A stretch of DNA of 64,000 nt from NCBI RefSeq assembly GCF_036320965.1, contig NC_092225.1:201010-265009 (forward strand), read 5' to 3'. The stretch is from Panulirus ornatus (lineage: Eukaryota > Arthropoda > Malacostraca > Decapoda > Palinuridae). Position numbers and translations under genes: made by a program. The notes beneath the pieces were generated by a model that searched no databases, was not told the origin of the DNA, and saw nothing but the letters and a program-made list of their open reading frames with translations. Shown in pieces: positions 37,862 to 38,356 of this stretch (the first letter of the stretch is position 1; every line of letters begins with the position of its first letter).

Positions 37862-38356
37862 TTTGCTTCCTCCAGTTTTCCTCCATTCAGGCTTGCCTCC
37901 CAATTGACTTGACCCTCAGCCCTGCTGTACCTAGTGACCTTGCTCTTATTCACATTTACTCTTGGCTTTCTTCTTTCACACACTTTGCCAGGCTCAGTCA
38001 CCGGCTTCTGCAGTTTCTCACATGAATCAGCCGCCGGCGCTGTGTCGTCGGCGAACAGCGGCTTACTCGCTTCCCAGGCTCTCTCATCCCCAACAGACTT
38101 CGTGCTTGCCCCTCTTTCCAAAGCTCTTGCATTCGCCTACCTAGCGGCCCCGTCCATGGACAAATTGAGCAACCATGGAGACATCACGCACCCCTGCCGC
38201 AGACCTGCATTCGCTGGGGGCCAATCACTTTCCTCTCTTCCTGCACGTGCACATGCCTTGCATCCTCGATGGAAACTTTTCACTGCTTCTAGCAGCTTGC
38301 CTCCCACACCATATATTCTTGGTGCCTTCCACAGAGCATTACTATCAACTCTATCA
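37862..38356 (-). mobile_element. LINE-A fragment hypermutated A-to-G on the plus strand
   Basis: The fragment covers the RT from DRVD to EKLEEV on the minus strand. Compared with the minus copies at 7155, 20757 and 44331 it shows about 52 A-to-G changes on the plus strand against about 5 of all other types, counted by eye. The palm block still reads LFADDTAPAAD. Flanks on both sides are (TA)n. See findings. Confidence 0.93.

Follow-up and report, generated by a model that had tools for sequence, protein, structure and literature searches.

Clustered A-to-G changes in LINE-A copies of Panulirus ornatus point to the insertion of ADAR-edited RNA of either strand

The window, by which we mean the whole stretch of 64,000 nucleotides of Panulirus ornatus DNA that was analysed, raises the question of why one fragment of a repetitive element, at positions 37862-38356, differs from its relatives almost exclusively by A-to-G changes on one strand. 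The fragment belongs to LINE-A, which encodes a reverse transcriptase (RVT_1) when read in sense; among the matches listed, its nearest named animal relative is a jockey-like reverse transcriptase of Cherax quadricarinatus (58%), and unnamed proteins are closer (up to 89%). It aligns with some 20 LINE-A copies in the window, and the alignment with most of the close ones needs no gaps. Compared with the majority sequence of 11 close copies, 52 of its 139 A have become G over 491 aligned bases, and the remaining changes in these bases are one T>C, two C>T and one each of G>T, C>A and T>A; an extra A>G (TTTA>TTTG) lies within the first four bases. The preliminary description had claimed about 52 A-to-G changes, one T-to-C and four others, and our count agrees with it except that the others are five. 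Its coordinates and orientation were also correct, i.e., LINE sense is on the minus strand and the changed plus strand is antisense to it. The strand asymmetry of 52:1 corresponds to a binomial p of 5e-15, the 11 other close copies have just 0-2 A>G apiece and the changes cover the whole length of the fragment at 3-8 per 50 bp. The one-way A>G burst was confirmed as real. The proportion of changed A depended on the 5' neighbour (T 15/25, A 21/39, C 14/63 and G 2/12; A or T against C or G, Fisher p 4e-5), which bears out the earlier remark that few of the changed A follow a G. On codon positions 1, 2 and 3 of the open sense frame there were 13, 23 and 16 changes, so that they are not mainly silent, and selection at the codon level was ruled out, the second positions being the most often changed. 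The A:T mutagenesis of polymerase eta includes A>T and A>C, and a process of this type was ruled out because both are missing from the fragment. As for G>A/C>T clusters, the mark of APOBEC DNA editing, the fragment has no G>A and two C>T.

The elements around the fragment do not share the burst, as had been described. To its right are a (TA)n tract (38357-38478) and an unedited SINE-like repeat with an A-rich 3' end (38483-38722, plus strand), which is on the same strand as the edited antisense strand of the LINE. To its left, another (TA)n tract (37746-37861) marks the place where the window copy is cut, and a second SINE copy (37507-37745, plus strand) lies beyond it. Aligned with a consensus of 39 copies, the left SINE has four A>G and the right SINE two, compared with a mean of 2.5 in 26 SINEs that do not adjoin an edited piece, and the left copy is therefore at the SINE background level; eight A>G were counted in it in a three-copy comparison, and the larger alignment showed these to be mostly G>A in the right copy. 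Downstream, an unedited LINE-A in sense on the plus strand (38784-39960; LINE reference -41 to 1139) has five T>C and four A>G. The 3' ~66 bp of the right SINE (window 38657-38722; SINE 175-240) match the LINE-A 3' end at 78%, and SINE 175-240 aligns with LINE-A 3' ends in loci L012, L040 and L043. This resemblance likely reflects a LINE-SINE partnership, as would be expected if LINE-A moves the SINE.

The preliminary description had treated the fragment as a single peculiar case; instead, it is one member of a ten-locus subfamily, H1, inside a wider class. A 24-mer that is diagnostic for H1 had exact matches at ten loci on nine contigs of the 2.65-Gb assembly, and the scoring of 40 of 10,149 candidates yielded seven other full-length copies with 96-99% identity over positions 1-495 and one partial copy. 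In all eight of the H1 copies that were aligned, which come from eight contigs, 43 A>G sites were common. The seven other full-length copies (L002-L008) have the same (TA)n junction at their sense-5' end and extend to the left, where the window copy is cut, into edited LINE sequence. In the seven copies that were analysed with their flanks, the change spans ~1250 bp evenly, from a shared 5' truncation at the (TA)n to the LINE 3' end, the alignment of one of them (L014) reaching only position 1042. The burst is thus ancestral to this dispersed subfamily, of which the window copy is one member. In L021/L012 (contig C18), the sequence is edited up to ~864 and unedited at reference about 864-1250, a break in the pattern that points to H1 having also undergone recombination, gene conversion or a template switch. 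The same-strand SINE was kept in five of the nine annotated H1 loci (L011, L012, L015 and L051 are without it), which hints at co-mobilisation; recombination in the (TA)n is the alternative. In L051 (C1, 2121-4240), two edited H1 pieces were observed side by side, head to tail.

Clustered copies elsewhere in the genome, which the preliminary description had pointed to as a check, were found as further independently edited loci, both antisense and sense. The antisense pattern, a 24-mer searched with up to two mismatches, which favours heavily edited copies, matched 22 loci, compared with none for the reversed-pattern control. All 22 loci were strongly T>C-rich in sense (27-133 T>C vs 0-9 A>G), and 12 of them did not belong to H1 and each had a pattern of its own. 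Between events, the edit patterns were discordant at 20-44% of the shared sites (114 pairs), whereas the four H1 loci that were compared differed from one another at 0.8-4.2%, and each pair used had at least 30 shared sites; therefore, 13 independent antisense events were counted, i.e., H1 and 12 others. Pooled, with H1 represented by a single member (L023) both here and in the context statistics, they comprise 1124 T>C in sense vs 47 A>G, 8 C>T, 93 G>A and 122 transversions. These data bear on the question whether a LINE-A subfamily shares the G positions as ordinary diagnostic sites, which the preliminary description had raised against its own reading. The sharing itself is real, as H1 proves, but the sites are not ordinary, since H1 differs from LINE-A, consensus against consensus, by ~132 T>C to 3 A>G in sense rather than by a mixed spectrum, and the changes are biased by context. 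Together with the independent patterns at the 12 other loci, this spectrum refutes an ordinary subfamily as a full explanation and leaves it very improbable.

The neighbours of the changed A indicate the type of enzyme. Within the edited zones of the 13 antisense events, 1122 A were changed and 1454 were not, and the edited fraction was.69 after T,.61 after A,.31 after C and.165 after G (p 1.5e-74). The effect of the 3' neighbour was weak (G.52, C.455, A.417 and T.395; p.004). In vitro, the 5' neighbours of ADAR sites rank as U/A > C > G, and the order T > A > C > G observed here reads as an ADAR signature. The depletion of a 5' G is a mark of metazoan ADARs according to Porath et al. (2017, PMC5625713), who also described A as favoured on the 3' side of edited sites in invertebrates. 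The presence of ADAR genes, another check named in the preliminary description, was also verified: exons with the ADAR-type deaminase domain (PF02137) form three ADAR-like clusters on contig C47, at about 1.20, 1.27 and 21.46 Mb, and the one exon from C47 that was examined matches human ADAR2 (E 1.8e-26). An intronless ORF with a full deaminase domain was also observed on C50 (L052), and it is presumably the tRNA deaminase ADAT1. An adenosine deamination burst with ADAR-like neighbours, as originally suggested, is supported and recurs in independent copies.

LINE-A copies edited on the opposite strand were also present. The sense-edited pattern, searched with up to three mismatches, matched 89 loci, compared with none for the reversed-pattern control. 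Two further controls, searched with up to two mismatches, had no match: one in which the same six sites were changed from A to T, and one in which the seven C of the 24-mer were changed to T and which is slightly stricter because of its seven sites. Six of the 89 loci were fetched, all from the ten matches with a single mismatch, and this search likewise favours dense editing. Five were clean, with A>G/T>C counts of 52/2, 75/1, 141/1, 78/0 and 130/2 (476 A>G to 6 T>C when pooled), and were mutually discordant at 27-44%. The sixth, L054, was rejected as a clean case and left out of the pooled counts, as it is an old diverged copy with 46 A>G, 12 T>C and 38 G>A. In the five clean loci, the edited fraction per 5' neighbour was.67 for T,.49 for A,.31 for C and.14 for G, and an effect of the 3' neighbour was absent. 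Three of the five extend to the LINE 3' end and have an A-rich tail behind it, and in a fourth the edited 3' end was read through into the A-tail. Moreover, a piece of L013 (3186-3429) is sense-edited, with 34 A>G and no T>C, and is the sole such piece in 152 LINE alignments from 20 loci and the window.

Analysis of the surroundings of the antisense-edited pieces showed how these are combined with other elements. A same-strand SINE is located directly 3' of the edited piece in nine of the 12 independent events, every gap being shorter than 300 bp, compared with six of 71 unedited LINE pieces from the same loci (p 2.7e-6). This orientation control comprised LINE fragments of at least 150 bp from the window and 20 loci, each at a distance of at least 320 bp from the locus ends; because its 23 edited fragments include the sense-edited piece of L013, for which an antisense direction is meaningless, the 12 independent antisense events were used instead. 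In two of the 12 events (L048 and L043), a sense LINE that retains its 3' end comes after the edited piece, and L040 has neither a same-strand SINE nor an opposite LINE partner. An opposite-strand LINE is also found at that place in 25 of the 71 unedited pieces, so a sense LINE in this position, as in L048 and L043, is not remarkable in itself, and L048 is supported as a chimera by its direct repeat and not by its LINE neighbour. The preliminary description had regarded the plus-strand LINE downstream of the fragment as the link for the copying back of an edited antisense transcript; the copying back is the best fit, but the recurrent immediate neighbour is the same-strand SINE and not a LINE.

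The SINE partners are unedited, with a mean of 1.9 A>G and a maximum of six in 13 copies, which is no more than in the 26 other SINEs. Direct repeats that enclose the edited piece, its partner and the tail were found in L050 (15 bp), L048 (12 bp) and L041 (9 bp). They were clear in these three of the ten loci tested (L039 and L040 were outside the test), and in the seven others they were weak or none, or lay in (TA)n; with windows from these repeat-rich loci as the background, the three reach p values of only.02-.07. The insertion in L041 interrupts another LINE-A copy at reference -675/-685. Sequencing or assembly error would hardly place the diagnostic pattern at ten H1 loci on nine contigs, let edit boundaries coincide with element boundaries in several loci or supply direct repeats in three, and we regard its probability as practically negligible. 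Biased misincorporation by the reverse transcriptase, i.e., G opposite U or an effect of an imbalanced nucleotide pool, would be expected to give one-way transitions, but it does not account for the same order of 5' neighbours on the changed A in two opposite strand classes, and the SINE part, which was made in that reaction too, is free of such changes; it is highly unlikely.

The explanation that we consider best, with a probability of roughly 0.88, is that LINE-A RNAs of either strand were edited as double-stranded RNA, reverse-transcribed and inserted, the antisense ones probably via template jumping. The editing is read here from genomic DNA alone. LINE-A RNA of either strand would pair into long double-stranded RNA, in which ADAR would deaminate many A to inosine, and a LINE reverse transcriptase would read inosine as G and insert the copy. 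Copies that could give rise to a pairing partner are abundant: the unedited LINE-A 24-mer has 137,388 exact matches in 2.65 Gb, i.e., ~one per 19 kb. The 3' side of the antisense RNA includes change-poor stretches, with no change at reference 66-188 in L030/L042 and one change each at reference 41-253 in L031/L043 and at reference -54 to 271 in L034/L046, as if the end of the antisense RNA had protruded from the duplex. A hairpin with the sense LINE of the same insertion was also considered as the substrate, and it is unsupported: neither in L048 nor in L043 does the sense arm carry edits, which means that this arm did not form the duplex within its own molecule, and the edits in L048 exceed the overlap. 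A sense-edited RNA would be inserted through the LINE's own 3' end. An antisense-edited RNA, which is without such an end, would enter within a chimera, as its 5' part, attached to the 5' end of either a SINE, whose own 3' end resembles that of LINE-A, or a 5'-truncated LINE; the reverse transcriptase, having copied the SINE or LINE RNA, probably jumped to the 3' end of the antisense molecule. H1, one of these products, would then have spread to at least ten loci, the window among them.

A different possibility is that ADAR or another adenine deaminase acted on the DNA strand of an RNA:DNA hybrid, in target-primed reverse transcription or in an R-loop, where twin priming would leave an inverted 5' part edited on the top strand. 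ADAR can act on DNA in RNA:DNA hybrids, the strand fits the antisense class, and L048 and L043 have the layout with an inverted 5' part that twin priming gives. However, if first-strand cDNA had been edited, ordinary sense insertions would be expected to carry T>C in sense, and those found carry A>G; copies that keep the LINE 3' end and the A-tail would require the opposite strand to have been edited. The sense LINE or SINE to which the edited piece is joined likewise has no matching T>C excess, and the antisense LINE piece of the SINE chimeras does not derive from the RNA of the SINE. In ordinary twin priming, the LINE arms are not known to overlap in coordinates, but the two arms of L048 and of L043 do. 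Deamination of first-strand cDNA, one of the two candidates of the preliminary description, is thus disfavoured, and DNA editing as a whole is improbable. The other candidate, an edited antisense transcript that was copied back, is the best fit for the window locus, and both classes are accounted for if the strand edited was RNA, before reverse transcription.

The joining of the two parts may also be explained without a template jump, if a locus with the two elements side by side gave rise to a single read-through RNA that contained both the edited antisense LINE and the SINE. This would suit the (TA)n that lies between LINE and SINE in six of the nine SINE chimeras, a layout that is common in the genome. 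Nevertheless, all nine junctions are at SINE position 1-10, three of them (L041, L042 and L044) are direct, with a 2-bp overlap, the LINE-LINE junction of L048 is also direct, with a 2-bp overlap, and a same-strand SINE is rare at this place beside unedited pieces. The position of the junctions favours a template jump, and those with (TA)n fit either a jump or a read-through; we consider read-through possible but rather doubtful as the general route.

These findings resemble several known systems without being identical to any of them. Porath et al. (2017, PMC5625713) described ADAR hyper-editing of repeat RNA in Metazoa, with dense A-to-G clusters, depletion of a 5' G and repeats capable of forming double-stranded RNA, as here. 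The clusters they described are in RNA reads, whereas ours are in genomic DNA, in independent insertions, and the 3' A preference that they described for invertebrates was not seen in our data. The chimeras are similar to the MINE elements of Magnaporthe, which Gogvadze et al. (2007, PMC2104539) attributed to LINE template switching and in which a foreign transcript forms the 5' part that is fused, as in our case, to a SINE or a 5'-truncated LINE. MINE chimeras were described with direct repeats of 10-20 bp and without microhomology; here, by contrast, the 5' part is hyper-edited antisense LINE RNA, and the junctions have (TA)n or a 2-bp overlap. Deaminase clusters in genomic retroelements had also been sought by Zaranek et al. 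(2010, PMC2873906), whose APOBEC signal is G-to-A, from the deamination of C in cDNA, and who reported 129 A-to-G/T-to-C clusters vs 247 G-to-A/C-to-T clusters in human retrotransposons. Unlike that signal, ours is A-to-G with ADAR neighbours and concerns either RNA strand, and the C>T control had no match. Among the literature matches listed, from a search in which most subscription journals were outside the scope, no title or beginning of an abstract referred to ADAR-edited RNAs of non-LTR retrotransposons that are fixed in a genome.

RNA editing is usually assumed to leave no trace once the RNA is gone. In viruses and retroviral proviruses, ADAR-type A-to-G hypermutation turns edited RNA into copied sequence; our case differs in that it involves RNAs of non-LTR elements (LINE and SINE), an animal genome and both strands. 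It is probable, if less firmly so than the editing itself, that these copies amount to an inherited record of double-stranded LINE RNA that ADAR edited on both strands in cells which pass their DNA to the next generation; sense molecules would reinsert themselves, antisense ones would travel as passengers on SINE or LINE RNAs through template jumping, and an edited copy could found a family such as H1. If this is true, the DNA preserves a record of the LINE RNAs, antisense ones among them, that paired into long double-stranded RNA and encountered ADAR in the germline or early embryo, of the length over which they were edited and of the neighbour preference. Antisense LINE transcription, defence based on double-stranded RNA and the effect of ADAR on retrotransposition would then be testable from genome sequence alone, and new repeat families could arise from edited RNA in this way.

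Several other places in the window were also considered. A weaker second cluster was observed in one arm of a palindrome (40303-40553, minus strand), with 22 A>G vs 2 T>C on the minus strand and ADAR-like fractions of changed A per 5' neighbour (T 13/22, A 4/5, C 3/10 and G 2/11); the other arm (40041-40279) is without such a cluster. The region 8801-9300, which was at first flagged for A>G, proved to be a difference in a TA/TG microsatellite, and in the copies at 3045, 57735 and 62701, which were also flagged, G>A is as frequent as A>G, so that they look like a diverged subfamily. Finally, the regions ~55300-58900 and 60280-63900 contain pairs of repeats at a constant offset of ~4965 bp, which suggests a recent tandem duplication of ~5 kb.
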